NCBI RefSeq assembly: GCF_037081715.1
Contig: NZ_JAZDDH010000004.1
Location: forward strand, 1 to 64,000
Direction: 5' to 3'
DNA: 64,000 nt
Origin: Halalkalicoccus sp. CG83
GTDB taxonomy: Archaea; Halobacteriota; Halobacteria; Halobacteriales; Halalkalicoccaceae
The notes beneath the pieces are model-generated. The model was not told the origin of the DNA. It made no database searches and was given only the letters and a program-made list of their open reading frames with translations. A program made the translations under genes and the position numbers. Positions 34,869 through 55,138 of the stretch are shown here, piece after piece. The number at the start of each line of letters is the position of its first letter. Positions within the stretch are counted from its first letter, which is position 1.

Positions 34869-35723
34869 TCACTCACTACCGACGTCAGCTGTCTCCGGTG
34901 AATTCGTCTCAAACGTGGTCTCACCCGGAATCTCGGATTCCTCCGGGAGGACGACACGCCGCTCCTTGTACGACAATCCATCCTTCCGTCGGTTCTTTCG
35001 TTTCACGTACAGCCGATCCTTGGTGAGGTCGAGCAGTGCGTCGATCGTTCGGCCGGCGAGCTTCTGGCTGTACTCTTTGTTCACACCCGGCTCGTTGTGC
35101 CGAAGCCATTGGGCAAGCTCGCCGGCGTCGACATACTCGCGAACGCCGTTGCAGCCCTGCTTCCAGAGCATGCTTTGCTCTTGTTCGTGATCGCGCCAGA
35201 CCTCCGCGGCAAGCCGCACGGGCTTCGAGGACGCTGCCGAGTGCAGCATATCGTCGTCCATACGCGCAAGCTGCTGGATCGGCAGTAAGTCACCGGTCGT
35301 GAGTGCAGGTTCGCCACCCCGATTCAGTGGATCCTCACCGCCGGGAATACGGGCGTAGGTCTCGCCGTCGTCCTTGGTGAACTTCTCGACGCGATCCGTA
35401 TCAACCTCGAGTGTTTCGACGTTGGGTTCGACGTGATCCCAGCGTAGATGCGCGTTTTTCTCGAGTTCGCGCGATTGGAGTTCGGTAAGCATCTCACGGG
35501 TGCCCCCTGCCTTCCGACGAAGCGCTTCGAGCAAGGCGTCTTGGCGTTCAACTGTGCCTTCGAGGTCCTCGATGCGCTCGTTTTTGCGTTCGACCGTAGC
35601 TTCGAGCTTGTCAACGCGCTCAGTGAGCTGATCGAGTCGGTCACAGACGGTCTCAAGCGTCTGGGTATCGCTGGTAGAACGGTCGAAAGCGGTGCTGTCG
35701 CTGGGAGATTCAGTCGTGTTCAT
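34869..35723 (-). CDS. Coiled-coil plus C-terminal DNA-binding-like protein, module copy 1
   Basis: The protein has 284 residues. An acidic start is followed by a long coiled coil (about 25-85: LETVCDRLDQLTERVDKLEA and following heptads). A middle domain (WDHVEPNVETLEVDTDRVEK) and a C-terminal helical domain (WRDHEQEQSMLWKQGCNGVR, EYVDAGELAQWLRHNEPGVN, DGLSYKERRVVLPEES) follow. The latter looks like a winged helix with a basic wing. The homologue at 53305-53991 shares the coiled coil but has a different middle and C-terminus. It is the third gene of a module with a zinc-ribbon protein and a short starter gene. Plasmid maintenance or transcription control is possible; the function is unknown. 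Confidence 0.65.
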   Translation of the reverse strand: MNTTESPSDSTAFDRSTSDTQTLETVCDRLDQLTERVDKLEATVERKNERIEDLEGTVERQDALLEALRRKAGGTREMLTELQSRELEKNAHLRWDHVEPNVETLEVDTDRVEKFTKDDGETYARIPGGEDPLNRGGEPALTTGDLLPIQQLARMDDDMLHSAASSKPVRLAAEVWRDHEQEQSMLWKQGCNGVREYVDAGELAQWLRHNEPGVNKEYSQKLAGRTIDALLDLTKDRLYVKRKNRRKDGLSYKERRVVLPEESEIPGETTFETNSPETADVGSE

Positions 35724-35941
35724 TGGAAATGCGGTGTGGTGTGCTGTCGCACGTGGGGACTCGACTGGCTGGCGTGGCTTGCGGTACCGATTGCTGAACC
35801 AGTGGTGGGGCAGATGCCCCGTCGCAGCCGAGTACTCGGCGGTCAATACGCTCTGGTTGAGAGGGACGATAGACGGGATTCTCGACGGGTGCGCTGACCG
35901 GTCGCGATCGCTCGTCGAGCGCCCGCCCATCGTAGCGCGGG

Positions 35942-36697
35942 TTACTCCTGGGAGGGGCTGGTGTGTGCCTGAGCGCTCGTACCCGTTATGAAACGTGTGG
36001 CCGGCTGGGTGTCGGTGGTCGCCGGATCGCCGTCAGGGTCAGTCTCTGCAGTAGCGTCGGTCGGCGTACCCGTCCAGGCCCTGATGTGCTGTGGCCAAGC
36101 ACTCAGTTTGATCTCAGTCGTGCAGTGTGGACAGGGACGAGTCTCCTGTTCACCTTGGCGTACAATCTGGCAATTTCGGCCGCGACGGGCAGTATGGGCT
36201 TTGGCATCGGCGAGTGAGATGGCTGTGTACTCAGCATCACCCCTGCAGTTGCACAGTGGGTGGCCGTCACCATCGTCGAGGTGATAGATCGTCTGTCCGG
36301 GGCAGTATGCGTCGCTGATGAGGGCTGCGAGTGCGTCGTTTTTGTTGTCGTCAGGGGTGTCGACGGTGCCTTCGCTCGGGAGACTTGTGGCGATCAGGTG
36401 GGGTTCGTGAAGGGTGTGGTATGTGGTTTGGGTTCGGTCATCCAGCGTACGCGTGAGTCGAGCTTGGAAGAGATATTCACTCGTCTCGCGTGTTGGGGAC
36501 GGAATCCCGTTCGGAGCGCAGTCAGCGCAGTAAAGCCGCTCAAGCGTGTAGGTCGCAGCGTCCTCTGGCTGGATCGCATAGATGATGCAGCGCTCGCCTG
36601 CTCTCACCGTCTGATCGCACTCGGTGCATAACGCGTCAGTAGGGAGTGGGGTGCCGGCGAGCAGTTGGGTGGTGTCGGAGTCGATCTTGATCTGCAT
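35942..36697 (-). CDS. Zinc-ribbon protein, module copy 1
   Basis: The 251-residue protein has several Cys pairs: TECDQTVRAGERC with LYCADCAP near the N-terminus, LCNCRGDAEYTAI and GRNCQIVRQG in the middle, and RPCPHCTTEIKLSAWPQHIR towards the end. It has an acidic, Thr-rich tail. The start ATG overlaps the stop of the upstream 65-codon gene (TGATG). The paralogue at 54171-54935 keeps all these cysteine motifs except for small changes. The multiple zinc ribbons suggest nucleic-acid or protein binding. Confidence 0.75.
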   Translation of the reverse strand: MQIKIDSDTTQLLAGTPLPTDALCTECDQTVRAGERCIIYAIQPEDAATYTLERLYCADCAPNGIPSPTRETSEYLFQARLTRTLDDRTQTTYHTLHEPHLIATSLPSEGTVDTPDDNKNDALAALISDAYCPGQTIYHLDDGDGHPLCNCRGDAEYTAISLADAKAHTARRGRNCQIVRQGEQETRPCPHCTTEIKLSAWPQHIRAWTGTPTDATAETDPDGDPATTDTQPATRFITGTSAQAHTSPSQE

Positions 36698-36894
36698 CAG
36701 GCGGTCACCTCTCTGGTCGGAATATGTCTGCTATGGATTGCTGGGGTCGCTAACGAGAGAGTTTCGTGAGTGGGGAGATCATCAGCGTCATCGCTACCGT
36801 ACCGAATTGATTCCCTCGCAGTCTGTGCTGGGTTGTCGATTGGTCCCGTGAGAAAACCTTTATTCCCAGGGTACCGTTGTGTTGGTGGCGTCAT
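36697..36894 (-). CDS. Short first gene of the three-gene module, copy 1
   Basis: This 65-residue gene is coupled by a TGATG overlap to the zinc-ribbon gene, which supports its reality. The sequence is polar, with no cysteine motif (NKGFLTGPIDNPAQTARESI). The first gene of module copy 2 (54929-55138) is zinc-finger-like instead, so the two leading genes may not be homologous. The function is unknown. Confidence 0.5.
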   Translation of the reverse strand: MTPPTQRYPGNKGFLTGPIDNPAQTARESIRYGSDDADDLPTHETLSLATPAIHSRHIPTREVTA

Positions 36895-37314
36895 TGTGAT
36901 TGCAGGTGTGGTAAACGTGTCGTCTACCCAACCGATGGAAGCTACACACTGACGTCCTCCGCCGATGCAAGGGGACCACTCACAACCAAGGTTCCAAGTT
37001 GAGTGTGAATGGCCCCCTCACAAGCGGAGTGAGTCTCTGTGCGCTGCTCCATTCGTTGAGTAACTACTCTATTCTAACCGCCCGCGACTGAGGTTAGGGG
37101 CTAACGAAACCTGTCGTAGTATGCTACTTCGATTTCCGGAGTGGATCTCGACCATCCATCGTAATCCAGGCGCTAGAGGGCATATAATTTCATCCGTGTT
37201 TACGGTGTCAACCCCCGTGAAATACACATACTGTAAATTATGTGTATTTGGAAACAGTCGTATCGGTCAAGCATTGTATTGTGATTAGTAACAACGATAT
37301 AAAAATATTATATC
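36895..37314. other. Intergenic region with a 30-bp operator-like palindrome
   Basis: There is no gene. The region is bounded by the module copy 1 start and the end of the UbiA gene. A perfect inverted repeat lies at 37220-37249. The rest shows no repeats. Confidence 0.5.
37220..37249. promoter_or_regulatory. 10-10-10 inverted repeat, operator-like
   Basis: AAATACACAT (37220-37229), a 10-base spacer and ATGTGTATTT (37240-37249) form a perfect dyad. Half-sites one helical turn apart are typical of dimeric repressor sites. It could serve the leftward module or be part of the UbiA gene's 3' region. Confidence 0.5.
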
Positions 37315-38163
37315 CTACAACACTGTTGCTACCCGGCCAACAATGAACGCTGCAGCTGTCAGAAACGTTCCGTATTTTAAAAATGATTGTCCAGCAGCTG
37401 GTTCAGAAAAGCTGACATACCCAGCATACAGCATTATCAGAGTTGCTGGGAGAACGACCAAGAGATACGGCATTCCGAGTGTGCCGAGAAGATATGGAAG
37501 CGGTGTCAGTATAGCCATTAGGCAGAGAAATACCGCTGCGCTCAGGAGTGCTCGGCGCTCTCCAACCACGATTGGTAGTGTCTTCAGGTCTTTTTCACGA
37601 TCTCCAGTAATGTCCTCAACGTCCTTGATTACTTCTCGAGAGAATGTTGCTAATGCTGCTAGGACGAACAGTATTCCAGGGGCCGTAAGATCCTCAACAG
37701 CTGCGCCGCCGAATAAGAACGCACTCCCGCCAAGATATGCTATAGCAGCATTCCCGACGCCTGGTAGTCCCTTCAAGACAGGCGTGTATGCCACCAGAAG
37801 GCCAATATTTATGACTGCTATTGCGATTGCCACCGGCGATAAAGTAAGAGATAATCCTCCAGCCACGGCAAATAGAATTGCGCTAAATAGGAGTGCGGTT
37901 TGAGGAGTAACCGAGCCACGCGGAAGCGGCCGTTCCGGATTCGTGATTTGATCGATCTCTCTGTCGAAATAGTCGTTAACCGCGTTGCCTGCCCCTGTTG
38001 CCAGAATCGTCACAAGGGTTGCAACGGCGATGGAGTCAGCGCTACCGACGATGCCGCTCCCTTGAGCGACAAACGCGCCGGTAAACGTCAGTATCCCAGC
38101 GACGATCGTATTTACTGGTCGGGTGAGGTTGAGTAACCCACGAACGCGCTCATCAACCGGCAT
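37315..38163 (-). CDS. UbiA-family prenyltransferase, DGGGP-synthase-like
   Basis: The 282-residue membrane protein has about nine hydrophobic helices. The first Asp-rich motif is at 63-71 (NDYFDREID) followed by ITNPERPLPRG. The second is DVEDITGDREKDLKTLP near residues 180-196. These match digeranylgeranylglyceryl phosphate synthase, which adds the second geranylgeranyl chain in archaeal lipid synthesis. Homologues acting on quinones share the fold, so substrate choice is inferred from the ITNPERPLPRG stretch. A lipid-core enzyme on an accessory replicon would be a second copy. The divergent FilR1-like regulator at 38268 begins about 105 bases away. Confidence 0.85.
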   Translation of the reverse strand: MPVDERVRGLLNLTRPVNTIVAGILTFTGAFVAQGSGIVGSADSIAVATLVTILATGAGNAVNDYFDREIDQITNPERPLPRGSVTPQTALLFSAILFAVAGGLSLTLSPVAIAIAVINIGLLVAYTPVLKGLPGVGNAAIAYLGGSAFLFGGAAVEDLTAPGILFVLAALATFSREVIKDVEDITGDREKDLKTLPIVVGERRALLSAAVFLCLMAILTPLPYLLGTLGMPYLLVVLPATLIMLYAGYVSFSEPAAGQSFLKYGTFLTAAAFIVGRVATVL

Positions 38164-38267
38164 CCAATACTACGAGGGTTTCTTGATTGAGGCAAAAAGG
38201 CAATCGAAGTCAACTGATCGTTTCGTATCGTGGTGTTATTTACACGCCACCAAAAACTGATTCTATA

Positions 38268-39392
38268 ATGGAACGTGAGTGTATCCCGTTGGCTGCACTC
38301 GAGGATGAGCGCACAGCTACAAATCCACTCAACGATGAGCAATTCGTTGTTCGTGAAGCGATCAACGAACTCATCGATTCGACGTGCTTGGATATACTCC
38401 GTGTGCTTGATGGAGACGCGTCAACGCCAACGGGCATTGAAAACCAAGGGATCGTTTCCCGACAAACTGCCTCAGAGCACCTCTCAGCATTCGCACGTCA
38501 TGGGCTCATCAATCAGAAAGCATCAGCACCGCTCGAATACACCCTCACATACGGTGGTGTATTCGTCCTAGAAGCCGTCGAAGCATGTCTTGAAGAACTC
38601 TCTCGCGAACAGCTTTCATTTCTCACCCGGTCACCTCGACCGCTTCAACTGTTGCGGACGCTCAGAACACGGCCTGCAACGCGAAGCGAACTCACAACAT
38701 CCGGTGAGGATTCACCATCCAGCGTCACGATTTGGCGTGCCTTACAAGCGTTTGTAGATTACGGCTGGTGTGAGACGGAATCCGGCTCGTACTCGCTTAT
38801 CTCAGCCGGGAAACAAGCCCTAGCTGCATACGAAGAGTTGCTTGTACTGGGTGAGCAAGCAATCGAGAAGGCTCCGTTCTTACAACGTCTCTCAACGACC
38901 TGGGGCGATTTTCCCACACATGCTCTTACAGATGCGGAGATCGTTGCATCGGAACCAGCATCTCCTGGTCTTGTTGTAGAGGCCGCACTCAAGCTCTGTG
39001 ATCCTCAAACGCGACAATTTCGTATTCTCACGTCTGTGTTCAATCCAACAGTGTTTGCTGGGTATCATAAGTTGCTCAAGCTGGGCGTGGTCTTAGAGCC
39101 GATTGTCGATGCATCGGTCTACGAGACGATTTGTGCCAATGACGACTTCCACTATCTCCTAGATAATTCCAAATATGAGCGTTATACGCTGTCTCGGCTT
39201 GAGGAATCGCTCACGCTTGGTATCGGACTCTATGATGAGCGGAAAATTGCTATCGGCGCATACAATGAAGTCGGTGAGGGCAACCATATTGCCGTTCTCA
39301 TTAGTACACACGAAGATATGGTTGAGTGGGGAACGAAGGTGTACCAGACATATAGAGAACAAGCTCTCCCTCCGGATGAATCAGATTACTGA
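38268..39392 (+). CDS. FilR1-like winged-helix regulator
   Basis: The protein has about 374 residues. An N-terminal wHTH (STCLDILRVLDGDASTPTGI, then NQGIVSRQTASEHLSAFARH) and a second one (RSELTTSGEDSPSSVTIWRA) are followed by a C-terminal domain of about 170 residues (FRILTSVFNPTVFAGYHKLL through KIAIGAYNEVGEGNHIAVLI). That domain resembles the FilR1/DUF1724 sensory domain of archaeal regulators. I chose the ATG at 38268; a longer frame reaches 38187. It is divergent from the UbiA gene and may control it. The ligand is unknown. Confidence 0.8.
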   Translation: MERECIPLAALEDERTATNPLNDEQFVVREAINELIDSTCLDILRVLDGDASTPTGIENQGIVSRQTASEHLSAFARHGLINQKASAPLEYTLTYGGVFVLEAVEACLEELSREQLSFLTRSPRPLQLLRTLRTRPATRSELTTSGEDSPSSVTIWRALQAFVDYGWCETESGSYSLISAGKQALAAYEELLVLGEQAIEKAPFLQRLSTTWGDFPTHALTDAEIVASEPASPGLVVEAALKLCDPQTRQFRILTSVFNPTVFAGYHKLLKLGVVLEPIVDASVYETICANDDFHYLLDNSKYERYTLSRLEESLTLGIGLYDERKIAIGAYNEVGEGNHIAVLISTHEDMVEWGTKVYQTYREQALPPDESDY

Positions 39393-39426
39393 AACGTGTT
39401 AAGGATCAAATTCAGGGATAGCGTGT

Positions 39427-40158
39427 TGAGAAGGTTCCCGAATAGAAGTGTTACTGCGCCGGACCACACTAGTCGATGAGGACGGAGACCAGCCACCACA
39501 AGATATGCTGGCCTTGCTACTGCGTGTGGAATCCAATCCGGAGGTTACCTACTCGGAGAACCAGATTCGTGATGAGGTTGCGACCTTCCTCATTGCAGGA
39601 CACGAAACGACCGCGCTCAGTCTCACGTATACCCTCGGCCTTCTTGCGCAGCATCCCTCAATTCGAGATCGCGTACGAAGTGAGGCCGAGAGTGCGCTTG
39701 GTGACGAACAGCCACAGTATGAGCATCTAACGGAGTTGCCCTACACTAAACGTGTCTATCGGGAAGGGTTGCGCCTGTATCCCCCGGCGTGGGCAGTCTT
39801 TCGGCAGGCAAGCGGGAAAGCTCGATTAGGCGAGTACACGGTACCGGCTGGATCTGCGGTGATTCTTCCCCAGTGGTCCGTCCATCGGGACAAACGGTAT
39901 TTCGATAATCCCACATAGTTTGATCCGGCCTGGTGGGAGCGACGGTCTCCCAATTCGGTGAGTGCGTATTTCCCGTTTAGTACGGGGCCTCACTCGTGTA
40001 TTGGCTCACAGTTCGCACTCTCAGGGGCGACGCTGTCGCTTGCTCGTCTCACGCAAGCGTTTGATATCGACGTTCCTGCGGCTGAGTTGCGAGATCTTCG
40101 TCCAACACCGACGCTTCGGCCCCAGGGTGGTGTGGCGGCCACGATTGAACCACGCTGA
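39427..40158 (+). pseudogene. Cytochrome P450, truncated and interrupted by a stop
   Basis: The frame holds the C-terminal half of a P450: I-helix AGHETTALSLTYTLGLLAQH, the E-x-x-R in YREGLRLYPPAWAVFRQ, and YFDNPT. A TAG stop (39916-39918) follows where the family has Glu, then the same frame continues FDPAWWERRSP and the haem loop FSTGPHSCIGSQFA with its cysteine. One base change (GAG to TAG) explains the stop. The N-terminal 200 or so residues are missing, so the gene was already truncated. Typical length is about 440 residues. Confidence 0.85.
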
Positions 40159-40286
40159 CATAGGTAGTACGTTCGTTCGACGCCGTTCGCTGCGGAGAGA
40201 TTGATTCAACGACATACTACGACCGGGCTGCCGTCTCTTTTAGAGGTGTCCGAAGCATTATGTGCGCTATGACTGGATGACTAGCT

Positions 40287-40475
40287 ATGACTGAACAGTT
40301 TGATCGGCCCGGTGTCGATCTCGTTCTCAAACTTGGCGAGCGTAACACGCCTCGATCGTGTGTAGCCGATGGCTGTGACCAGGACGCCAATTATTACGTT
40401 CTGACTGATAACGTGCTCTCAGAGTACGCCTGCGAAGAGCATCTTGAGGGGACAATCGAGCGGGCCCAAGCCTGA
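40287..40475 (+). CDS. Short haloarchaeal protein with two cysteine/histidine pairs
   Basis: This 62-residue protein has SCVADGCDQDANYYVLTDN and YACEEHLE, arranged like a small zinc-binding finger. A possible TATA sequence lies about 30 bases before the ATG. It is probably a zinc finger protein of the short haloarchaeal class; the function is unknown. Confidence 0.65.
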   Translation: MTEQFDRPGVDLVLKLGERNTPRSCVADGCDQDANYYVLTDNVLSEYACEEHLEGTIERAQA

Positions 40476-40598
40476 GATCCGTTTTGGCCGGAAATGAAAG
40501 CGGGGTCCAAGAAAGCTAGTTTGTGCTGTATGCGTTCCTGCTCATCTTAAACGGGATCCCTGTGGTAGTATCCGAGGTCACCAGGCGGATCTGGGCAA

Positions 40599-40850
40599 CT
40601 ATGTACCACCGCTGGTTTCGAGGAGAGCAGCGATGTCGCGACAGATAACGACTGCTCGGATGGTACTCGAAGCGGAAGAATCCGATGGTGGTGCAATGAT
40701 GACACCCTCTGAGGTTTCCTCATAGATGAGATCATACGACTCACGAAGGTGCTGAGAGACGCTTCTGAGTTCGTCAGCATCCATGGAGAGAAGGGTCTCC
40801 TGAATTGGCTGTGGAGCTTCTAACTCTCCGGACGAGGGTCCCTGTGGCAT
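40599..40850 (-). CDS. Hypothetical protein
   Basis: The 83-residue acidic protein has a central predicted helix (MDADELRSVSQHLRESYDLI) and two beta strands (GVIIAPPSD and AVVICRDIAALL). Codon use and acidity fit a real gene. No family is recognised. It converges with the small gene at 40287. Confidence 0.5.
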   Translation of the reverse strand: MPQGPSSGELEAPQPIQETLLSMDADELRSVSQHLRESYDLIYEETSEGVIIAPPSDSSASSTIRAVVICRDIAALLETSGGT

Positions 40851-41008
40851 TTGTTGTCCGTATATTACCGCCGAATACTAATAAATGATTTCTATCCATT
40901 GCAAGCAGTACTTCGATCGTGGCAGATCAATAGATTATTATGAGAGTTGCATATGCCAGCAGTAATCTCATAATCCTCAGCTAATAGTACACAGTTTGAT
41001 ACTGAAGA

Positions 41009-41185
41009 ATGAGTCACCGGTGTACAGAATGCGACTGGGTAACCGATGAGGACACACAGACCGATCCGAGTACCGCTGCGATTCACCATTACGTCGAAAC
41101 CGGACATGCTGTTGAACGGGGTGCGTCAGTCACAGAGTCACCGACACCGCACCCTGACGACCAGTCCGAACGGCTCATAAAGTAG
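41009..41185 (+). CDS. Very short zinc-finger-like protein
   Basis: The 58-residue gene runs from the ATG at 41009 to the TAG at 41183-41185. It begins SHRCTECDWVTDED and has AIHHYVETGHAV, a C2H2-like spacing of CxxC and H-x(6)-H. Small proteins of this type are frequent in haloarchaea. The function is unknown. Confidence 0.6.
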   Translation: MSHRCTECDWVTDEDTQTDPSTAAIHHYVETGHAVERGASVTESPTPHPDDQSERLIK

Positions 41186-42389
41186 TGAGCACGCTGTAGC
41201 GGTCGGCGATCTGCTCAGGGAGCGCACAGATCCGCTCTAAGGACATCCTGGTCGACTGTGAGAATATTATCGGTTGCCTCACTAGTCGTGTTGTCTGGCG
41301 ACGATTCGAGTGCCTGGATCGATGCTTTAATGTCGTCTTATAATTGACAATTGGCTTAAGAGAGAGGAGGAGCGTTTTATTCTGCAGCAGTCACGCGCGC
41401 GAATTTGAATGGTCTCTGCAAAACGTACAGTACCCGGTGAGTCTGCTCCGAACGCCGCTCAAGCGATCGCCACAGGCCTCACACCGGTCAGTTAGTAATG
41501 ATAACGGGTACATATGTGAGAAGGAAGGAAGCGAAACGATGGCCGGTCAAACCCTCGTTGCTTCTGACATCGGAATTGAGTCCCGGTATAGGCAGCATAT
41601 GAGTTCTGTTCCTAAGACTTTACTTTGTCTACTCAAATCATGCACTCACCTGAAGGAATAGCACGCGCGCAGAGTGTTACCTAAGTATCGAGGAGCTGTA
41701 CAACCGGTCGTAGTGGAACCCTCGGCAACTGAGGGAAATGACAGTCAGAATATATACGCTCACTGAAGAAGACCAAGCACTCGTTGAAGGATGGTAAACG
41801 TGCAGACTGTCTTGGGTAAGGTAATCACCTTCTTCTCTAAGCATAGTACAAGAAATCGCCACGACATTTCTAAGGATCGACCACAGCGAGGGGTACGCTC
41901 CTGCCGAACCAGACACGTATGGTATGTTTATCTAAGGTTTTCTCGTGAGTCTAATTTTAATTGGAGAAATAGGGCTGCTTGCGGATCAGAAACGCATGAC
42001 TGAGTGGTAAGAGAATCCCGGCCGCAAATGTGGGCTTTGGGTGGATGCGGCCAGGAAGGCGTAGTGCCGCCTCCACAGGGCGACAGTTGTTGGTTCTGAG
42101 GCACTCATTTGTAGGCTTTTTTATTAGGGAAATCCGCCCTAAGGCCCGTTCCTATGATTTAAGTCATGTGACGACATAGCATGACCTGCGACCCTCATTT
42201 CAGTTGGTCGCTATCACCGTGTGAACACCAACCTCTCTGAATCAGATTACTAAAAGTTACGTGTAATTCCCAGAACACCGATTTAACAGCAGTAAAGGAC
42301 CCTATGTGAGGTTGGATTGGCCAGTATTGTTGAGACGGACGGGTGGGAATACCAAACACTAACTTCTAGAGTGGCATGGGAGCAAACCG
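41186..42389. other. About 1.2 kb without a supported gene; includes a module relic
   Basis: Apart from the relic at 41190-41335 I see no coherent gene. Open frames are short and Arg/Ser/Cys-rich. A short start MTVRIYTLTEEDQALVEGW* at about 41740 looks like the end of a lost gene. Confidence 0.45.
41190..41335 (-). pseudogene. Relic of the module copy 2 coiled-coil gene
   Basis: The stretch matches 53612-53755 closely over long blocks (GCGATCTGCTC then GCACAGATCCGCTCTAAGG, later CTCACTAGTCGTGTTGTC and GGCGACGATTCGAG). It corresponds to the linker and middle of the coiled-coil protein, with no intact frame. Confidence 0.7.
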
Positions 42390-43111: not shown

Positions 43112-43206
43112 CAAAACACGCTTGGAGTAGACTCTCAGTCATTTCAGCGTCATTTGCGGATAAGTGAGTTTAACACAACGGTAGCTAGAGGAGATAGCAG
43201 CCCAAC

Positions 43207-44005: not shown

Positions 44006-44379
44006 GTAGTCTCCCTATGAGACAGGAGGAGATTTGGGTGTGGGCGCTTTTCTTCTGCGGCGGTCCAACACCGCTTGATCGCTCTGCTATCAATGACGGG
44101 TCCAGCAGGGCCTTCTCGGCGTAATCTTGAACGTCACGAGCGATGAAGCGCATGCGTTCTTGGTTGGCAGTGAGTTCCGATCGGCGACGTTCAGACCCAG
44201 GCCGAGTCACCATCAATACTATGAGTCATCTATAACTAGATACAATTCAGGAGAACCTTCCTGTAATGATAACGTTCACTATCTGCTGGCCAAGAGAGAA
44301 CGTATCCTACAGGTGATCAGAGATCTGAAATCCAACAGCGGACGGTCGACCACACTATGATTAGCAAGCAACACTATAC
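44006..44379. other. Intergenic region with a module relic
   Basis: The minus-strand relic at about 44080-44216 is listed separately. The rest has no clear gene. Confidence 0.45.
44080..44216 (-). pseudogene. Relic of the coiled-coil/HTH module gene
   Basis: ELTANQERMRFIARDVQDYA in one frame matches ELTTNQDRARFIARDVRDYA of the copy 2 gene at 53305-53991. The reading breaks off after AEKALLDPSL. This is one of several decayed copies. Confidence 0.7.
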
Positions 44380-46864: not shown

Positions 46865-47425
46865 TCACTCAAGCATTCCCAATTCGGTGAGACGCTTAGT
46901 GACGGTGTCCAGTGCTTGGTCGATATCATTACGCGTCTGTGCACCTGTAATGATGAGCTTCCCGCTGCCGAAGAGCAAGAGGACGACCTGTGGATCATCC
47001 AACCGGTAGACGAGTCCAGGAAACTGTTCAGGTTCGTATTCGAGATTTTCAAGGCCGAGTCCGATAGCGATAGCATTGAGATGTAACGGCTGGCCCAGAT
47101 CTGCATTGCTAACGATGTTCTGGACGGTAACGTCGGGTGTTTCGGGAACCGTGATGCCGAGCTCTCGTAATGCATCAACGACCTGAGCGAGAGAAGCGTG
47201 AAGGGCATCTTCGCTCTGTGCGCCGGCCGTCACGATCTTCCCCGAGCGGAAGATAAGTGACGTCGCAGCCGGCGCCTCAGTCCGATAGATGATACCCGGA
47301 GACCGTTCGGGAGCATAGTCGGCACGAGGCAGATCGACCGCGACACGTTTTAATTCGAGTTCCTGACCGATTGCTGTAGAACCGACCACGTTTTGAATCT
47401 GGATTGTGTCGGTTGGTGGGTCCAT
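46865..47425 (-). CDS. tbp: TATA-binding protein paralogue 1
   Basis: The 186-residue protein has two direct repeats of the TBP fold. The first holds IQIQNVVGSTAIGQELELKR and RSPGIIYRTEAPAATSLIFR, the second VTVQNIVSNADLGQPLHLNA and FPGLVYRLDDPQVVLLLFGS, each ending in GK(L/I)(I/V)(I/T). These are the saddle halves that bend TATA DNA. The sequence is divergent at several positions, as for haloarchaeal accessory TBPs that act with particular TFB proteins. A second TBP lies at 55684. Confidence 0.93.
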   Translation of the reverse strand: MDPPTDTIQIQNVVGSTAIGQELELKRVAVDLPRADYAPERSPGIIYRTEAPAATSLIFRSGKIVTAGAQSEDALHASLAQVVDALRELGITVPETPDVTVQNIVSNADLGQPLHLNAIAIGLGLENLEYEPEQFPGLVYRLDDPQVVLLLFGSGKLIITGAQTRNDIDQALDTVTKRLTELGMLE

Positions 47426-47528
47426 GTCGTGTTATGTTCAAGATCCGTGTGGATACAGCGAGTATGCGTCGTGACCAGTGGTAGTCGTCAACGCACTGCG
47501 CGCTCAGCTCATGCGAGCGATCTAGTCA

Positions 47529-47696
47529 CTAGAGATCACGCGGTTGGACGGTGCTGCGGTCATTGGCCTCGGTTCGCCGGGCTGCATCCTCCAAGAGTGC
47601 TGCTACTTCCGCATCAAGTGCATCATAGAACGCTTTCGACACCTGGTAGCCATCCAGTGTATTCTTCACTCCCGATTTGACGAGCAGATCCGTCAT
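47529..47696 (-). CDS. Short histone-fold protein, DUF1931-like
   Basis: The 55-residue gene reads MTDLLVKSGVKNTLDGYQVS, KAFYDALDAEVAALLEDAAR and RTEANDRSTVQPRDL. The last block (A-R(R)-x-E-A-N-D-R-x-T-V-x-P-R-D-L) is characteristic of the haloarchaeal DUF1931 histone-fold proteins. It is encoded next to a TBP paralogue, with which it may be co-regulated. Confidence 0.85.
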   Translation of the reverse strand: MTDLLVKSGVKNTLDGYQVSKAFYDALDAEVAALLEDAARRTEANDRSTVQPRDL

Positions 47697-48622
47697 ACTA
47701 GTCTATTTTCATGATAGTTATATAAAGATGCGCGAAACTCAATGCCCAGAATTCCGTCTCCATCGGTGTAGCGACGAACCTGTCAATTATTAGTTTGGGA
47801 GATCCAACGATACATGCGTTAACATCGAGCATAGTTGATAGACGATGACGGCACTGTATCCCCCCTACTCACTCGCTTCGCTCGCTCGTTGAGGAAGGGG
47901 CCTTAGCGCCTGCGGTTAGGTAATCCGTCGCGCACCGAGGCGTTCCAGCAGACACTCCACAGCTGGTCGAAGCCTGTTTCGAGATGCTGATTCACGTGCG
48001 CAACTTCCCGATTCTCGACGGCCATTGCCATGAAGATGTGATATACTTTCGAAGCCAGAACCGGTGAAACCGTTTCTCCCCACGCTACTACTCCTAAACC
48101 AGGAGGAGGCTGCTCGTAGTTGGTACTACAACGGCCCGGCTTGCCCGGAGTGGGTGTTGCGGACTATTCCAGTTCGTATTGTCTCGGTGTTAGGACATCA
48201 CGCTCTGTGCGGGGACATGCTTGTTCGCCCGATCACAACGATCGTGACAGCGATTAACCGCCTCGAGATCGACAACGACGGGCTTCTTCCGCGACGTTTC
48301 GTCTGCTTAACCTCGTCTTTGCCGAGCTTCTCTAGGAAATTCATGGCCTGAGCCGCAGTTTGTATATGGGGCTTTGTTCATTCCATGATAGTAATCGACT
48401 TTGCAATAATGCACTATTGATCTCAAGGCCAGCAGGCGCTTTCTCGGCGTAGTCTCGAACGCTGCGAGCGATGAAACGAGCTCGTTCCTGGTTGGAGGAG
48501 AACGCGTGCCTGACGACAGTCGGGAGCGAAAGGAGTTTTCTCGTCAGGGTTGGGATACCAGCCGCCCGGGTGAGACTCAGGCACGGATTTAAGCCTATTG
48601 CTATTAAACACGATACTACAAT
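47697..48622. other. Non-coding region with relics
   Basis: A short minus-strand frame (about 47935-48060; AMAVENREVAHVNQHLETGF) ends in a stop and is not recognised. The stretch 48060-48520 duplicates 53190-53640 in decayed form. Confidence 0.45.
48060..48520 (-). pseudogene. Decayed copy of the 3' part of the coiled-coil module gene
   Basis: Long near-identical blocks match the plus-strand sequence at 53190-53640: CCCACGCTACTACT, GCTGCTCGTAGTTGGTACTA, GTGTTAGGACATCACG, GATCACAACGATCGTGA and GACGTTTCGTCTGCTTAAC. The relic encodes ERARFIARSVRDYAEKAPAG in one frame but lacks the rest of the gene. The duplication includes the downstream flank of the module. Confidence 0.8.
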
Positions 48623-48874
48623 ATGGCCGCCGAACTCTCCGAACGAGTCCGCGAAATCGCACAAGCACGTGGACTCTTCGAGTCAGCGGTCTTCGAACAA
48701 GCGCTTGAACGTGGACTCGAATCGATCTGGGAGGACGTCGTTCTCGAAGCCTACTTTGCAGGAGACCTCTCAAAAGCAGACACGATTGATCGTCGCGGAC
48801 GAGCGAAAGTCGAGCGAGCAGACCGCAAACGAGCGGTTGTTAAAGAGGACGTAGCATGGGGTCTTAACGGGTGA
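48623..48874 (+). CDS. VapB-like antitoxin
   Basis: The 83-residue protein is helical (SERVREIAQARGLFESAVFE, then QALERGLESIWEDVVLEAYF). The C-terminus is basic (RRGRAKVERADRKRAVVKED). It is followed by a PIN-domain toxin with a 4-base overlap (GTGA), the standard antitoxin-toxin arrangement. It resembles antitoxins of PIN/DUF3368 pairs. Confidence 0.75.
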   Translation: MAAELSERVREIAQARGLFESAVFEQALERGLESIWEDVVLEAYFAGDLSKADTIDRRGRAKVERADRKRAVVKEDVAWGLNG

Positions 48875-49355
48875 GTACCGTTGCGGTTGCTGATACAGGC
48901 CCGCTGATTCATCTCGCAGAGATTGATGCCTTAGCACTACTGGAGACGATCGACGAGCTGCTCGTTCCGGACACCGTCTATGAAGAACTTAGAGCAGGCG
49001 GACTCCCGACAGGATTCGATTAAGACAACTCGAGTACCAGCAGAGACCGCTTCGATTGACGACCACCAGTTAGTAGTTAGATCCAGGCGAAAGAGCCGCT
49101 CTTGCGGTCGTCACTGCGCACAATGCGATTTTACTGACTGATGATCTTGCGGCTCGCGATGCAGCAACGTCGCTTGGCGTTGAGGTCCACGGATCGATCG
49201 GGATTATTGCCCGTGGATACGCAGAGGATCGTCTCGACCAAGAGGAAGCGGCTACGTTGATGCGAACGCTCCAGCATGAGACGAGCCTGTTTCTCACTGA
49301 CGCCGTCGTTGAACAAGGGATTGCGTTACTCGAAGCAGACAATAACGAAGAGTAG
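48871..49355 (+). pseudogene. PIN-domain toxin (VapC/DUF3368-like) broken by two indels
   Basis: A GTG start gives VAVADTGPLIHLAEIDALAL with the PIN Asp, ending in a stop after TGFD (49021-49023). The next part (KTTRVPAETASIDDHQLVV) is in another frame. The rest (DPGERAALAVVTAHNAILLT, then DDLAARDAATSLGVEVHGSI) returns to the first frame to the stop at 49355. The second acidic cluster (LTDDLAARDAA) is preserved. The two shifts compensate, so the gene is intact except for about 20 residues. The toxin is probably inactive while the antitoxin is intact. Confidence 0.85.
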
Positions 49356-49374
49356 AGACAAACCCCATTCTCCA

Positions 49375-49672
49375 TGGATAGCCGTTGTCAGGAGTGGAAC
49401 CTCCAACCGGGGGGAGTAGGGTCCGAGGACATCACTCACCACCGACGTCAGCTGTCGCCGGGACGATTGTTTCACCAGGGACCTCTGAGTCCGCTGGAAG
49501 ACGACACGCCGTTCCTTGTACGAAAGCCCATCCTTACGTCCGGTTCGTTGTGGTGGAGCCACTGGGCGAGTTCACTAGTATCGACGTATTCACGAACGCC
49601 GTTACAGCCCTGATTCCAGAGCGTGCTCCGGTCCTGGTGCCGGTCACGCCAGACCTCAGTGCTTGAGATCGT
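49375..49672 (-). pseudogene. Relic of module copy 1-type coiled-coil gene
   Basis: This matches the 3' end of the gene at 34869-35723: CATCACTCACCACCGACGTC, CGACACGCCGTTCCTTGTAC, then TTCACGAACGCCGTTACAGC. An internal deletion of about 100 bp and truncation at the C-terminal domain border leave no usable frame. It ends where the DUF790-like fragment begins. Confidence 0.8.
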
Positions 49673-49901
49673 CGTATTCTGGACGCCAGAGTACCTTGAG
49701 AAGAAACTGGAGAAAATTCGGGCAGTGAATGCAGACAACCTGATCGTAGCGGTTTCAGAAAACCTGGACTGTAGCAGCGAGGATATTGCGCTCACGGATG
49801 ACCGGGTACTTTGGTTCAAGACGGGGATCCACGTCTACAATGTTGTCGATCTGGCGGAACGGTATGCGGTTAAGTCACCGGCTAGGACCTCCAACAGATG
49901 A
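49662..49901 (+). pseudogene. C-terminal fragment of a DUF790/Bax1-like nuclease
   Basis: The frame reads EIVVFWTPEYLEKKLEKIRA, then NADNLIVAVSENLDCSSEDI, then DDRVLWFKTGIHVYNVVDLA. This matches the end of the DUF790 (Bax1) nuclease domain, the partner of archaeal XPB helicase. The nuclease core and the rest are missing. It begins inside the module relic, so an ancient deletion joined two genes. Confidence 0.65.
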
Positions 49902-50026
49902 TAAACCTCGCGGATACTTGATCGCAGTGACGGCACCTCCGTACAAAAGATAGGTTACCTCTCAGAGTTCGGATCTCGGTCAATCTACCAGCATGTGATC
50001 AGATATCACGGTGTTTTTGGAGGACT

Positions 50027-50866
50027 TTAATAGAGTACTGCGTTAATTACAGCGCCGAAAACAATAATCACCCCGCTGATGTAAAACCATGCAAGTAACA
50101 GGAGCACGCCACCTAGCACTCCGTACACCTCGTACTGGCTGGCGTGTGCGGCGTAGATCCCGAACAGTGTATTTAGAATTGCCCAGCTGACTGCCGCCAC
50201 GATTGCTCCGGGGAGTGCGTCGACGAGAGAGTGGTCGATAGCCGGTAACAGATAGTAGATCGGCCAAAAGACCAATATGAGAGCGACTAGTACCGCTCCC
50301 GCACTTGCAAGTCCGATGAGCGGGAGGTCGGGGAGAACTGCGAACAGAACGCTGATACTGATCAGTCCGGTCCCGGCGATTAACAGCGCAAGAAACAGCA
50401 TTGTAGCGGTCGTGAGCTGTGTGAGAACCGGCGGTGATAGCTCCGTCTCATATACCATCGAAATCGCGATCTCAAGACCTCGGAGAAGGCGAAACACGCT
50501 CCAGACGAAAACGAGGCCCGCTCCGACGATGACGCCCGTCCGTCCTTCGGTCTGTGTGATCGCATTACGAATCAGCTCTTGACTGGTCGGCGTCAGAAAT
50601 CCCTGGGTCACAACCACGATCCGCACCGCGAGATCAGTCCCACCGATGGCCGAGACCACGATAAACGCAAACAGTAACAGCGGAATCAACGCGGCAAACG
50701 CGTAATAGGCAATACTGGCGGCCAGAAACGGCACTTCCTTTTTCGTCGCAAGGACAACTATCTCCCGAATCACAGCTTCAATGCGACTGAGTCCGCTGTA
50801 GGTCCGATGAATAAGTCGGGAACTCACGTGGATAATGTCCGTGTCTGCGTAACACTCACACAACAA
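50027..50866 (-). CDS. YihY/BrkB-family membrane protein
   Basis: The 279-residue protein has about six membrane helices. The characteristic start PFLAASIAYYAFAALIPLLL, the central RTGVIVGAGLVFVWSVFRLL and the terminal SQYEVYGVLGGVLLLLAWFY-ISGVIIVFGAVINAV match the BrkB/YihY family (predicted integral membrane proteins once thought to be RNase BN). Translation may begin at 50866 or at a GTG at about 50827. The function is unknown. Confidence 0.9.
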   Translation of the reverse strand: MLCECYADTDIIHVSSRLIHRTYSGLSRIEAVIREIVVLATKKEVPFLAASIAYYAFAALIPLLLFAFIVVSAIGGTDLAVRIVVVTQGFLTPTSQELIRNAITQTEGRTGVIVGAGLVFVWSVFRLLRGLEIAISMVYETELSPPVLTQLTTATMLFLALLIAGTGLISISVLFAVLPDLPLIGLASAGAVLVALILVFWPIYYLLPAIDHSLVDALPGAIVAAVSWAILNTLFGIYAAHASQYEVYGVLGGVLLLLAWFYISGVIIVFGAVINAVLY

Positions 50867-51112
50867 TGAATGCTTCGCAGCACATCTGTTTTCTCGTTCC
50901 TTCTGGTGATCTCATTGAAATCCGTAGCAGGATTTCTACCGAGTCAGCACGCCATATCTAGTAATGTTTGAGAATTTGTAAGCGTAACTATCGATTGTTC
51001 TGCTACTTCCTAGAAGGAGTACAGCTGGAAAAGACATGGGAGAAAGCTGCTTTCGTAGAAACTCCTATTTTCGCGGTCACTCTACATGAAAGGTTGGATC
51101 GATCGGTGGGGA
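50867..51112. other. Intergenic region, nothing recognised
   Basis: This short spacer lies between two leftward membrane-protein genes and has no repeats or frames of note. It probably contains the BrkB-like gene's promoter. Confidence 0.4.
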
Positions 51113-52291
51113 TTAGATCCCGAAGATGGGGACGAACCGAAAGGTCAGGTACGCTCCAAGGGTCGCGATCACCGGAACGAGGTTCTGCATCAGGATGATT
51201 CGGGCTGTCGTCGATGGGTCGAACAGGTCCGATGCCCTCGGAATCGTCGCGGGGTTCTCTTTGCCGATCGGCGGCAGCTCCTCGCCCACCTTATCGGCGG
51301 CAAGCGCTCCAACTGAGACCGTTGTTTGTTGTTTCCCGCGCACTGCCTCGGAGACTGTGAGCGGACGGGTCGCCCGTCCCCAGCCGAGGCCAATGATCGA
51401 CATCGTGGCGATCACGACGAAGCTTGCGGGGATCCCGATCCAAGAGAGGAAGGTCACGAGCGTGGCGCTGACGGTCGCAACGACAATAGCCGCCGTCAGC
51501 GGGAGTTCGGTGAGGTCGTTGCCCATCGTCTCCAGAGTGCGACGAGCGATGGTGAACGTGCCGATGCCGACAGCCAGACAGCCAATAACGATGGCGGGGT
51601 TCATCTCAAGTGCACCGCTGCCGACCAGCGGAGCGATCGCGTTGGCGATGTTCGAGGTGCCGGAGCTGAACGCCATCAGACAGCCGATCGCGATGACAGT
51701 CGTCACGCCACCCAGCTCGCGCCGACTCGTGGTCGCGCTCGGAACGGGCACTGGGATGACGCGGGAACGATCGACCCGGAGGAGAGGTCCCACGCTTCGC
51801 TCCATCGCGACCCTCTGGTTGAGGTACGCGTAGAAGTATCGGCCGATGATCAACGATACCCAGAACCCGATAAAAGGAGCGACAATCCACCAGATGGCGA
51901 TTTCACCCATCACTGCCCAGTTCAGTTCCTCGCCCGCGAGGCCGAGTCCCGCGATCGCGCCGACGGCCGTCATCGATGTCGAGGCGGGGACGCCGAAGAA
52001 GTTCCCGACGAACAGCGCCAGCCCGATGAAAAAGAGGACCCCGATGCTGGCCTCCAGCGTGAAGACGCCGGGATCGTGGACCAGTTCAGTCCCGAGTGTG
52101 TCGACAACCCGACGGCCGATCGTCCACGCGCCGATGAAGAAGAAGACGGTCATCAGGGCGGCTGCCCACGACTTCGAAATGGCGTCGGCGCCGACTGCTG
52201 GGCCGAACGCCGGCCCTGTCGTTGCGCCGCCAACGTTGTACCCGACGAAGATAGCGACGAGGACGCCTACGAGAAGCAACACGGTGACCAT
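51113..52291 (-). CDS. PiT-family inorganic phosphate/anion permease
   Basis: The 392-residue membrane protein has ten or so helices. The PiT signature occurs twice: GYNVGGATTGPAFGPAVGAD near the N-terminus (residues 17-36) and SGTSNIANAIAPLVGSGALE in the second half (about 229-248). The loop FFGVPASTSMTAVGAIAGLG is characteristic too. PiT proteins import phosphate with H+ or Na+. The G-N-V/N-x-A pattern (rather than GANDVANAFGTSVG) suggests a variant substrate or a diverged subfamily. It stands alone in a leftward group with the BrkB-like gene. Confidence 0.88.
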   Translation of the reverse strand: MVTVLLLVGVLVAIFVGYNVGGATTGPAFGPAVGADAISKSWAAALMTVFFFIGAWTIGRRVVDTLGTELVHDPGVFTLEASIGVLFFIGLALFVGNFFGVPASTSMTAVGAIAGLGLAGEELNWAVMGEIAIWWIVAPFIGFWVSLIIGRYFYAYLNQRVAMERSVGPLLRVDRSRVIPVPVPSATTSRRELGGVTTVIAIGCLMAFSSGTSNIANAIAPLVGSGALEMNPAIVIGCLAVGIGTFTIARRTLETMGNDLTELPLTAAIVVATVSATLVTFLSWIGIPASFVVIATMSIIGLGWGRATRPLTVSEAVRGKQQTTVSVGALAADKVGEELPPIGKENPATIPRASDLFDPSTTARIILMQNLVPVIATLGAYLTFRFVPIFGI

Positions 52292-52445
52292 AACAATAGA
52301 TTCGAATACGTATCATGTGGATAGATCCATAGGTGTTGTGTCGTCCTTCGTTATCGAAGCATTACCTGTGCCGTACGCTACGGATTGACAGTGGATGCTG
52401 CCGAGTTGCAACTCGTGACACGCTCGGTATCCTGAGGAGGCAGAA

Positions 52446-52823
52446 TCACCTGTCTGACCGGCCTTGTCCGTCGCCCTTGGCTGTCTCTTCGATCATCTCC
52501 TTGATCTCGTCTTCTCGCGGGCGACGCTCGACACGCTGATTGACGGTCTCGACCTGGTCTTGAAGTGTACCGATCTGCTCCGTTACGGTCTCCTCAACCG
52601 TCCTTTCGACTGTTTCTTCGACAGCTTCTTCGACTGCTGTGGTCATCCAGTCCGGATCGAAGCGCGCCATCTTCCAGGTGACGTGAACCGCGTAGGAGAT
52701 CAGCACTCCGAATCCGAAGGCGAGACCGATCTCAGTCCCTATCAAGATAATCGACAAGATGGAGACAAAGATCAACACCCCATACGTGAGATCGACAATG
52801 GCGTCAACGTGACGTGGATTCAT
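52446..52823 (-). CDS. Two-helix membrane protein with C-terminal coiled coil
   Basis: The protein has about 125 residues from the ATG at 52823; a longer frame begins at 52874. One or two membrane helices (GVLIFVSILSIILIGTEIGL, AFGFGVLISYAVHVTW) are followed by a charged helical stretch of V-E-E-T-V repeats (AVEEAVEETVERTVEETVTE) and QIGTLQDQVETVNQRVERRP. The coiled-coil half faces the cytosol. The family is unknown. Confidence 0.65.
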   Translation of the reverse strand: MNPRHVDAIVDLTYGVLIFVSILSIILIGTEIGLAFGFGVLISYAVHVTWKMARFDPDWMTTAVEEAVEETVERTVEETVTEQIGTLQDQVETVNQRVERRPREDEIKEMIEETAKGDGQGRSDR

Positions 52824-53304
52824 TGATGGGAGAATTTCCTGGAAACGGTTGCTGGCGATTCTGGTTTTGAACACAGGGGATCTGGCTCCACGTGTGTCTC
52901 CTGAGCGAGTTCGTGTGTGACAGCATGTCGTTGATTGTTTTCAAGGAGGCTGGGGAGAAATCCTTTGGGTTAGATGAAGTGCTGGACTGGTCCTGATACC
53001 CTCAGACCGGCTTCAGCGGTATGGATTTTCGATGGTCGCCAGCCAATTCTTAAGCAGACAGCTGGTCAGAGGTGGAAGATCGGACCTTGTGCAACAACTC
53101 CTGTTGAGAAAGACACGGTGTTGCACAAGGTCGTATCTAATCACACCGTGGTGTGATCTACTCGCAAAGCCAGAACCGAAGAAAGCGTTTCTACCCACGC
53201 TACTACTACTAAACCAGGAGAGAGCTGCTCGTAGTTGGTACTAGGCCAGCCCCGCCTACGTCGGGTGGGTGTCGCAGCCTATTCCTGTTCGTGTTGTCCC
53301 AGTG
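52824..53304. other. Intergenic region with palindrome copy E and the module downstream flank
   Basis: There is no gene. Palindrome copy E lies at 53083-53132. From about 53190 the sequence belongs to the flank duplicated at 48060. Confidence 0.5.
53083..53132. repeat. CCTTGTGCAAC palindrome element, copy E
   Basis: GACCTTGTGCAAC (53083-53095) and GTTGCACAAGGTC (53120-53132) form a perfect 13-bp inverted repeat around a 24-base loop. This is the same layout as copy C. Confidence 0.75.
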
Positions 53305-53991
53305 TTAGGACATCACGTTCTTCGTGGGGACATGCTCGTTTGCCCGATCACAACGATCGTGATATCGGTCGGCTGCCTCGGGATCAACAACGACGAGCTT
53401 CTTCCCGCGACGTTTCGTCTGCTTAACGTCGTCCTTGCCGAGCTTCTCGAGGAAATTCATGACGCGGGCCACAGTCTGGGTGTGAGGCTTCGTTCCTTCT
53501 GCAGCGGTGAGTACCTTCGTAATCGTTTGACTATCGATGACGAGCCCAGCAGGAGCTTTCTCGGCATAGTCACGAACGTCGCGAGCGATGAACCGTGCCC
53601 GGTCCTGGTTAGTCGTCAATTCGCGGTCAGCGATCTGCTCGGGTAGGCCACAAATCCGCTCTAAGGGCGTCTCCGTAGTCTGTGAGGATGTCTCGCCGGC
53701 GTCCTCACTAGTCGCGTTGTCCGGCGACGATTCGAGCGTCTGGACCTGCTCTTCAACGTCGGTAATCCGCCCGCGAACGTCGGCGAACTCCGAGCCGGCG
53801 AATCGCTTGTACTCCGTGAGTTGTGCTTCGAGTTCCTCAATCCGGTCGTCTTTCTGTTCGACCTCGGCTTCGAGCTCGTCAACGCGCTCGGTGAGTTGAT
53901 CAAGTTGCTCACAGACGGCCTTGAGTGTCGGCTCGTCGGTCGTCGCAGGCTGGTCGGTGGCGGTGCTCTCGGGAGTGGTGGTGTCGGTCAT
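53305..53991 (-). CDS. Coiled-coil plus HTH-like protein, module copy 2
   Basis: The 228-residue protein has a disordered start, a long coiled coil (LKAVCEQLDQLTERVDELEA, VEQKDDRIEELEAQLTEY), a linker with QTLESSP, and a C-terminal helical domain (NQDRARFIARDVRDYAEKAP, TITKVLTAAEGTKPHTQTVA, RVMNFLEKLGKDDVKQTKRR) that looks like a winged helix with a basic end. It shares the coiled-coil start with copy 1 but not the C-terminal domain. I chose the ATG at 53991 (MTDTTTPEST). Fragments of this gene occur at 41190, 44080 and 48060. Confidence 0.7.
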   Translation of the reverse strand: MTDTTTPESTATDQPATTDEPTLKAVCEQLDQLTERVDELEAEVEQKDDRIEELEAQLTEYKRFAGSEFADVRGRITDVEEQVQTLESSPDNATSEDAGETSSQTTETPLERICGLPEQIADRELTTNQDRARFIARDVRDYAEKAPAGLVIDSQTITKVLTAAEGTKPHTQTVARVMNFLEKLGKDDVKQTKRRGKKLVVVDPEAADRYHDRCDRANEHVPTKNVMS

Positions 53992-54170
53992 TGGAACAAG
54001 ATGTCGCAGGTGAGACGATCGAGCCCGTCCCGTGGCTGGCGAGTGATTCGAACGCGTGGCTGACCAGGAGGGAGATGCCCTGGGTCTGGACACGGGGTGC
54101 TATAGGCGCGCCTCTCGACGGGCGTGCAACGCTGGCGCTGTGAGAGGACCCTGCCCATCGCTGGCGTGGG

Positions 54171-54935
54171 TTACTCCGGCGATTGCGAGCGGGTGTGAGC
54201 CTGAACGCTCAGGCGTGTCGTCGGGCTCGTCGTTCGCTGGGTGTCGGTGATCGCTGGATCGCCGTCGGGATCGGTCTCCTCGGTGGCGTCGGTCGGATCA
54301 CCCGTACACGCCCGGACGTGTTGGGGCCAGGCACTCAGCTTGATCGCACTGCTGCAGTGGGGGCAGGGACGGGCCTCCTGTCCGCCCTGGCGTGCGATCT
54401 GACAGTTCTGACAGCGTCGAGCGGGGCGTGACTCGGCCTCAGCGAGTGAGACCGACGTGTACTCGGCCTCACCCCTACAGTTGCACAGGGGGTGGCCCTT
54501 GCCGTTATCGAGGTGATAGACGGTGGTTCCGGGGTTCTGAGATTGTTCGTCTCTGATAAGCGCCGAGGGCTCTTGGGGTTCGTCATGGGCTTCGGCTGTG
54601 CCCTCGCTCGGGGCACTTGTGTCGACGGCGTGGGGTTCGTGGAGCGTATAGAACTCGCTCTGGGTTTGGACGTCCAGTGTCCGGGTGAGTTGGGATTCGA
54701 GGAGGTGCTCGTTGAGTCCAAGGGTTGGAGCGGTGAGTTCCTCGGGGGTACACTCGCGGCAGTAGATTCGTTCGATGCGGAAGGTAGGGGCGTCCTCTTG
54801 TCGGGCGGCGTAGATCGTGGCCTGTTCGCCTTCTCTGAGGGTACGATTACAGCCCGTGCATTCGGGACTGTCGTCTTGGGTAAGTGTGGTGCCGGCGAAC
54901 AGTTGGGCGGTGTCGGCGTCGATCGTGGTCACCAT
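54171..54935 (-). CDS. Zinc-ribbon protein, module copy 2
   Basis: The 254-residue protein has the same cysteine sets as copy 1: ECTGCNRTLREGEQA and RIYCRECTPE, then LCNCRGEAEYTSV and CQNCQIARQGGQ, then RPCPHCSSAIKLSAWPQHVR and an acidic tail. The start ATG (54935) overlaps the end of the preceding short gene. The conserved order with the coiled-coil gene shows that this pair is a unit. Confidence 0.8.
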   Translation of the reverse strand: MVTTIDADTAQLFAGTTLTQDDSPECTGCNRTLREGEQATIYAARQEDAPTFRIERIYCRECTPEELTAPTLGLNEHLLESQLTRTLDVQTQSEFYTLHEPHAVDTSAPSEGTAEAHDEPQEPSALIRDEQSQNPGTTVYHLDNGKGHPLCNCRGEAEYTSVSLAEAESRPARRCQNCQIARQGGQEARPCPHCSSAIKLSAWPQHVRACTGDPTDATEETDPDGDPAITDTQRTTSPTTRLSVQAHTRSQSPE

Positions 54936-55138
54936 TGGTCGGCCACCTCGCACTCGTCAGCGTGGAAGGCTTGGCGGTAGAGGTCCTGCTCGCGGATGGA
55001 TTCACGAGAACAGGCGGTACAGCGCCAGTAGGTGGTGGCGTTCGCGACCGTTGGGGGTTCGATGTGGGGACCGGTGATTTGGTGGTCGGTCTGTTCGGAG
55101 GCGATACTGTTTTCTGGGGTAGAGTTGCTAGTGCTCAT
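54929..55138 (-). CDS. Short zinc-finger-like first gene of module copy 2
   Basis: The protein has about 69 residues from the ATG at 55138. The C-terminal half is YWRCTACSRESIREQDLYRQ, then AFHADECEVADQW, a C-x-x-C plus H-x-x-x-C arrangement like a zinc finger. Its end overlaps the next gene's start. The copy 1 leading gene does not share this pattern. Confidence 0.65.
   Translation of the reverse strand: MSTSNSTPENSIASEQTDHQITGPHIEPPTVANATTYWRCTACSRESIREQDLYRQAFHADECEVADQW

Follow-up and report, generated by a model that had tools for sequence, protein, structure and literature searches.

A widespread candidate RNA switch at the start codons of zinc-protein operons on haloarchaeal chromosomes and mobile elements

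Introduction

Translational riboswitches and ribosomal-protein leaders are structured 5′ leaders with mutually exclusive stems, one of which occludes the start region. As of 2021, the fluoride riboswitch of Thermococcus kodakarensis was the sole archaeal riboswitch shown experimentally (PMC8241225), and in Halobacteria an S15 leader precedes rpsO (PMC7247131). Most protein-coding transcripts of Haloferax volcanii (72%) lack a leader, and control by structured leaders has been judged "not typical in haloarchaea" (PMC4983044). Here we describe a structured leader in a stretch of 64,000 nucleotides (nt) from Halalkalicoccus sp. CG83 (the window), which belongs to a contig of 127 kb (G000:C4). The leader precedes module B, one of two modules (A and B) that encode a short protein, a multi-zinc-ribbon (zr) protein and a coiled-coil (cc) protein with a predicted winged helix-turn-helix (wHTH).

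We consider it probable that this leader is a new type of cis-regulatory RNA, widespread among haloarchaea, that controls access to the start codon, and that the modules are regulatory operons borne by mobile elements. Its predicted architecture is that of translational riboswitches and ribosomal-protein leaders. However, theirs precede metabolic or ribosomal genes, whereas the genes here, found on chromosomes as well as mobile elements, encode zinc proteins, and no ribosomal protein gene was recognized among the 83 first genes inspected downstream of leaders. The T. kodakarensis fluoride riboswitch is likewise archaeal with presumed translational control, but belongs to another lineage and has other downstream genes. 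The haloarchaeal zinc-finger micro-proteins Brz (PMC2253796) and HVO_0758 (PMC10716476) are likewise small and Cys-rich, but the module proteins differ from them and none scored above the cut-off of a Pfam zinc family.

Structure of the module B leader

The leader folds with unusual stability (z = −4.75) into two predicted states whose energies lie within ~1 kcal/mol. The minimum free energy state (−38.0) is a start hairpin contacting the ATG of short gene B, and the centroid (−36.8) is a three-way junction of helices P1, P2 and P3 (Table 1). P1 competes with the start hairpin, making the predicted conformations mutually exclusive. When start strands were swapped among sequences, the energy of the start hairpin weakened from −9.7 kcal/mol to −5.7 ± 0.25.

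Alignment of type B modules 5′ of the short gene revealed conservation of pairing rather than of sequence. MAFFT and RNAalifold missed P1 on the first leader set due to register differences, and P1 was found by hand; RNAalifold recovered all three helices from a covariance model alignment (A8). The leader extends past the coordinates given in a first-pass annotation of the window, to which the structured leaders, a divergent small wHTH gene and a long conserved spacer between zr and cc are additions.

Spread, covariation and position of the leader family

A covariance model built from nine plasmid leaders (R1) found leaders on which it had not been trained, both 5′ of zr modules on the organism's own chromosome and in other families, with E-values (rough for such models) of 1e-13 to 1e-5. 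A second model built from 48 sequences (R2, threshold E ≤ 0.01) matched 256 of 394 Halobacteriales genomes, encompassing 75 of 95 genera. In a wider draw of genomes from the phylum, matches were confined to this order. Rfam 15 yielded no match in the window at gathering thresholds and none in five further leader loci at E ≤ 1.

Covariation was assessed on 86 matches. Paired cells amounted to 93.0%, compared with 72.6% after shuffling, and the covariation score was 0.534 versus 0.154, with slid versions of the structure at ≤ 0.08. Changes on both sides occurred in 21 of 22 pairs, with 326 double-change cells against 77.7 in the control.

The position of the leader is also regular. We used a model of the three-way junction alone, lacking both tail and ATG (R3), and found an ATG 8–23 nt after P1 in 47/47 matches examined (control 16%). 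A stricter definition required that the first start that could be used be an ATG, located 8–30 nt after P1 and followed by a frame of at least 25 codons; this held for 33/47 matches versus 9.5% of controls. Start hairpins on R3 matches again depended on the native strands (−9.0 versus −5.4 ± 0.34 when swapped). At the other end, 67 non-redundant leaders displayed W-rich peaks at −31 to −27 and at −12/−11 relative to P1, which are signals outside the model. As these promoter signals are fixed upstream of P1, transcription is expected to start at P1 or close to it. The family has the features of a cis-regulatory leader: a conserved covarying structure, a constant placement after the promoter and before the start codon, and predicted mutually exclusive conformations that touch the start.

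Of 95 zr matches listed outside the genus, at least 30 were preceded by a leader in the same orientation no more than 1.2 kb away, and among the matches listed none had one on the opposite strand or downstream. We also inspected the surroundings of 83 leaders that end in an ATG: 57 had a small, divergently oriented wHTH gene within 700 bp upstream, 53 had the zr N-terminal domain encoded downstream, and 16 had a SWIM-like first gene; these proportions are not unbiased because the sample was partly picked as zr or cc loci. The products of genes downstream of leaders are small zinc proteins, SWIM proteins and zr proteins. First genes included those for a 68-residue WRCxxC protein, a 48–59-residue DHDWCDGP..LPCFxCF protein, SWIM proteins and a Cys-free 100-residue protein.

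A two-state model and its alternatives

Our evidence is computational and shows the conserved fold, both pairings, where promoter and ATG lie, and which genes accompany the leader. The P1 3′ strand has two possible partners, so the leader would act as a two-state switch on translation. The module B promoter would set the RNA 5′ end at P1 or within a few nt. Pairing of the P1 3′ strand with its 5′ strand would then form the three-way junction and expose the start codon, presumably the on-state, while pairing with the strand beside the AUG would form the hairpin that hides it. The switch would govern the first gene and the translationally coupled zr gene, with the divergent wHTH gene flanking the promoter. 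A protein most likely toggles the leader, and our favored guess is that one of the operon's own zinc proteins does so, which would amount to autoregulation. On balance, we favor the view that a start-codon-gating RNA switch, previously unlisted in the open-access literature, controls zinc-protein operons across haloarchaeal chromosomes and mobile elements. If true, an RNA switch class is common in a group thought to use few structured leaders. Its spread among Halobacteriales, together with an explicit two-state model making single-nucleotide predictions, renders RNA-level control in haloarchaea directly testable and offers a first handle on a large uncharacterized set of zinc and coiled-coil wHTH proteins.

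Several observations weigh against this view. No single ligand or autoregulation is evident, since the downstream genes are diverse. Module A is without the type B leader. A motif, GAAAA..GTATCG or CGAAACGGTTTCGG, recurs at about +22 to +34 from the ATG within otherwise unrelated coding sequences, and this conserved coding motif may belong to a larger element. Moreover, covariance model alignments lean toward the modeled structure.

The half-sites AGAAGC/GCTTCT look like inverted repeats, DNA-binding proteins are encoded nearby and an integrase-like gene follows one leader (L209), as would suit an element that works as DNA, whether an operator array or an attC-like folded single-strand recombination site bound by the divergent wHTH, cc or integrase protein. 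We regard this as unlikely: the stems vary freely in sequence yet stay paired, with many G-U pairs, promoter signals lie 5′ of P1, and orientation and ATG spacing are fixed. Slightly less likely still is that the leader itself senses zinc or another ion and tunes expression of a zinc-binding protein. Many first genes encode proteins rich in Cys (SWIM, NATTYWRC and DHDWCDGP families), but the products of several are Cys-free (100-residue DPRPDYI family), and neither a transporter nor a metal-homeostasis gene was seen among the genes inspected. It is very improbable that the leader acts in trans, for example as an RNA antitoxin or antisense regulator, despite its stable fold and many copies per genome, given that an ATG follows directly and that the final strand folds back to pair with P1, as in a cis element.

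Another proposal concerns the modules themselves and is compatible with a leader switch. The first-pass annotation had suggested replicon maintenance or incompatibility; the cc proteins would then be centromere- or iteron-binding with exchanged specificity. Such a role would fit the several plasmid copies, the presence of A and B on one plasmid, the cc B homologues on plasmids of 4.5–7 kb, the appearance of TubR among wHTH fold matches and the Orc1/Cdc6-like genes beside L137 and L103. Unlike ParABS and TubZRC, modules A and B are without a partition NTPase; the wHTH predicted in cc may or may not correspond to the DNA-binding adaptor of such systems. At least two small plasmids (L174, L184) have their own HUH Rep-like gene, and chromosomal module copies occur. 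We regard maintenance as possible but doubtful, albeit the least unlikely of the alternatives. A role in defense, also suggested previously, was unsupported: PADLOC returned nothing for zr, short B or wHTH proteins and only coil-type matches for cc.

Organization of the modules

Modules A and B are carried by a conjugative Halalkalicoccus-like plasmid, and the contig holds genes for ParA, Orc1/Cdc6 and a type IV secretion coupling protein. As the first-pass annotation had described, both modules lie on the minus strand in the identical order short, zr, cc, with starts coupled by overlaps at 36697 and 54935. Its description of one three-gene module present twice holds for zr A and zr B, which are homologous, and for the shared coil of cc A and cc B, but not for the short genes, which had no homology when compared. 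The ATGs at 35723 (cc A) and 53991 (cc B) are the true cc starts, and the in-frame upstream extensions in the open reading frame list fall within the zr-cc spacer. Overall, the earlier observation was partly confirmed and its interpretation partly supported.

Table 1. Coordinates of features in the window
Feature	Position	Strand	Remarks
ParA-like gene of plasmid	4289-5191		Outside modules A and B
cc A	34869-35723	−	284 residues; coiled coil and predicted diverged wHTH
zr A	35942-36697	−	251 residues; two Cys fewer than zr B
Short gene A	36697-36894	−	65 residues
Type A leader	36958-37029	−	Long hairpin 5′ of short A, unrelated to type B leader; fold z −6.71
Relic, cc B C-terminal domain	41199-41334	−	tblastn 1.3e-7
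Relic, cc B C-terminal domain	44038-44177	−	tblastn 2e-10
Relic, cc B C-terminal domain	48193-48538	−	Frames broken; tblastn 2.6e-22
Relic, cc A C-terminal domain	49435-49663	−	tblastn 9e-22
cc B	53305-53991	−	Coiled coil and predicted wHTH; AlphaFold2 model, Foldseek matches to wHTH proteins (see text)
zr-cc spacer, module B	53992-54170	−	Kept in type B modules (alignment); fold z +0.64
zr B	54171-54935	−	Multi-zinc-ribbon protein, 254 residues
Short gene B	54932-55138	−	69-codon frame including stop; zinc-finger-like WRCTAC...FHADEC; 78-88% conserved among type B modules
Leader RNA, module B	55136-55213	−	78 nt; three-way junction 55213-55154 plus tail, ends at short B ATG; R1 93.8 bits, R2 82.9 bits
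GAGAAGC strand of tail	55146-55140	−	One nt before ATG 55138-55136; complementary to P1 3′ strand
P1	55213-55203/55164-55154	−	11 bp closing stem
P2	55199-55183	−	
P3	55182-55165	−	
TATA-like element CTTATG	55238-55243	−	~25-30 nt before P1; assigned by eye in window copy
Divergent small wHTH gene	55306-55560	+	Profile match 4e-13

The zr-cc spacer of module B (~175 nt) is strongly conserved across type B modules and may harbor protein-binding sites. We considered it as a structured RNA, but although its sequence is conserved its fold stability is not unusual (z = +0.6), and we therefore make no RNA claim for it.

Module proteins

The two zr proteins share 57% identity over 250 residues. Contrary to the first-pass annotation, not every Cys pair is kept: RRCQNC and HVRAC of zr B correspond to RRGRNC and HIRAW in zr A. 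The zr and short proteins presumably bind zinc. Searches of the module proteins against Pfam, NCBIfam and PHROGs gave coil-driven matches only, no zr or cc homologue was found in phage records, and an IMG/VR scan with zr produced no confirmed match.

The cc proteins had been described as sharing an N-terminal coil but carrying different, seemingly exchanged C-terminal domains. The common coil was borne out, being all that BLAST aligned. The C-termini, however, are far-diverged paralogues of one predicted wHTH family rather than swapped unrelated domains, because iterated hidden Markov model searches merge the two domain families, the order of structural elements is equal, and hhalign aligned the two C-domains weakly but end to end (E 0.02), an outcome that had been named beforehand as contradicting the exchange. 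With whole cc proteins, hhalign aligned the coils alone. AlphaFold2 predicted a long N-terminal helix followed by an HHH-E-HH-EE domain in both, each with a mean predicted local distance difference test score (pLDDT) of 79. Foldseek matched the cc B model to the wHTH folds of MepR, TubR, Cdt1 and Fur at a probability of 0.98–1.0; since the best E-values were only 0.003–0.07, we assign cc B to no specific wHTH group. Foldseek found no convincing match for the cc A model, and a PDB sequence search returned coils only. The cc protein would be a coiled-coil, probably dimeric, wHTH DNA-binding protein. The likeness of cc B to MarR/MepR, Fur, TubR and SSV1 F-93 is in the C-terminal fold; cc differs from them by its long N-terminal coil and by belonging to no sequence family.

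Recurrence and exchange

The order short, zr, cc recurs across Halalkalicoccus, and Halalkalicoccus jeotgali is among the carriers of the modules. As anticipated by the first-pass annotation, zr and cc are neighbors elsewhere, at 15 further loci in the genus and a Halalkalicoccus plasmid record, and in other families (L114, L115, L134, L139, L141, L142 and L151). Modules of type B (composed of short B, zr and cc B) are present at ~12 additional sites, spread over five relatives and a plasmid of Halalkalicoccus sp. FCH27, and those of type A at four; where both types share a plasmid, 18–50 kb separates them. More broadly, of the 394 Halobacteriales genomes, 119 contained the zr N-terminal half, 101 the C-domain of cc A and 78 that of cc B. 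The expected high copy number and exchange between modules were evident from this recurrence and from the zr tree, in which the window's zr A, whose partner is cc A, clusters with zr of cc B modules, while L054 combines an A-type zr with cc B.

Other partners downstream of zr are an 841–858-residue helix-turn-helix protein and a RAMP-like protein (PF03787, below cut-off), and zr is also found 3′ of helicase-like genes. The RAMP-superfamily (Cas7-like) protein follows zr in L121 (3731-4591) and L143 (3409-4278), at 3.5e-4, just under the cut-off. cc A also occurs 3′ of a 253-residue protein with a Cas12f1-like TNB domain. In Natrialba-like loci (L158 4137-4898, L161 4279-5040, L163 1729-2496, L166 4227-5258), a compact protein with RuvC-like motifs, recognized by eye, precedes cc A. 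These proteins carry the TNB domain (PF07282, 4.8e-8, L161 examined) and resemble a truncated TnpB at the zr position, possibly a TnpB exapted with a wHTH partner.

On plasmids of 4.5–7 kb (L108, L174, L184, L187), a cc B homologue is paired in divergent orientation with a CopG/RHH coiled-coil gene that has a conserved C-terminal aromatic motif, PFF..W.RW. The idea that cc B is the plasmid Rep was weakened by HUH-like motifs, seen by eye, in L174 and L184; as these plasmids carry a gene read as an HUH Rep, cc B is probably not the Rep. On a 219 kb contig (G124:C7), zr and cc A matches recur many times with a spacing of ~6–9 kb, which suggests a multiplied element. Proteins read as Orc1/Cdc6 adjoin chromosomal short-zr-cc modules in L103 (12732-14012) and L137 (1199-2416).

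Other features of the window

Four relics reported by the first-pass annotation were present near their reported places by tblastn, but they are pieces of the cc C-terminal domain only; tblastn found no zr or short-gene relic. Hairpins in the position of the type A leader also occurred in other A-type loci (L053 z −7.6, L055 −6.3, L056 −4.2), although weakly in L051 (−1.5). In the window, L053, L055 and L056, the sequence of these hairpins is altered and their pairing retained. The plasmid also encodes two TATA-binding-protein paralogues (55684-56241 and 46865-47425; PF00352, 4e-44 and 8e-53), and a type IIG-like restriction-methyltransferase adjoins module B (56383-60537; Eco57I PF07669 5.5e-39, PADLOC DrmMI 1e-107).

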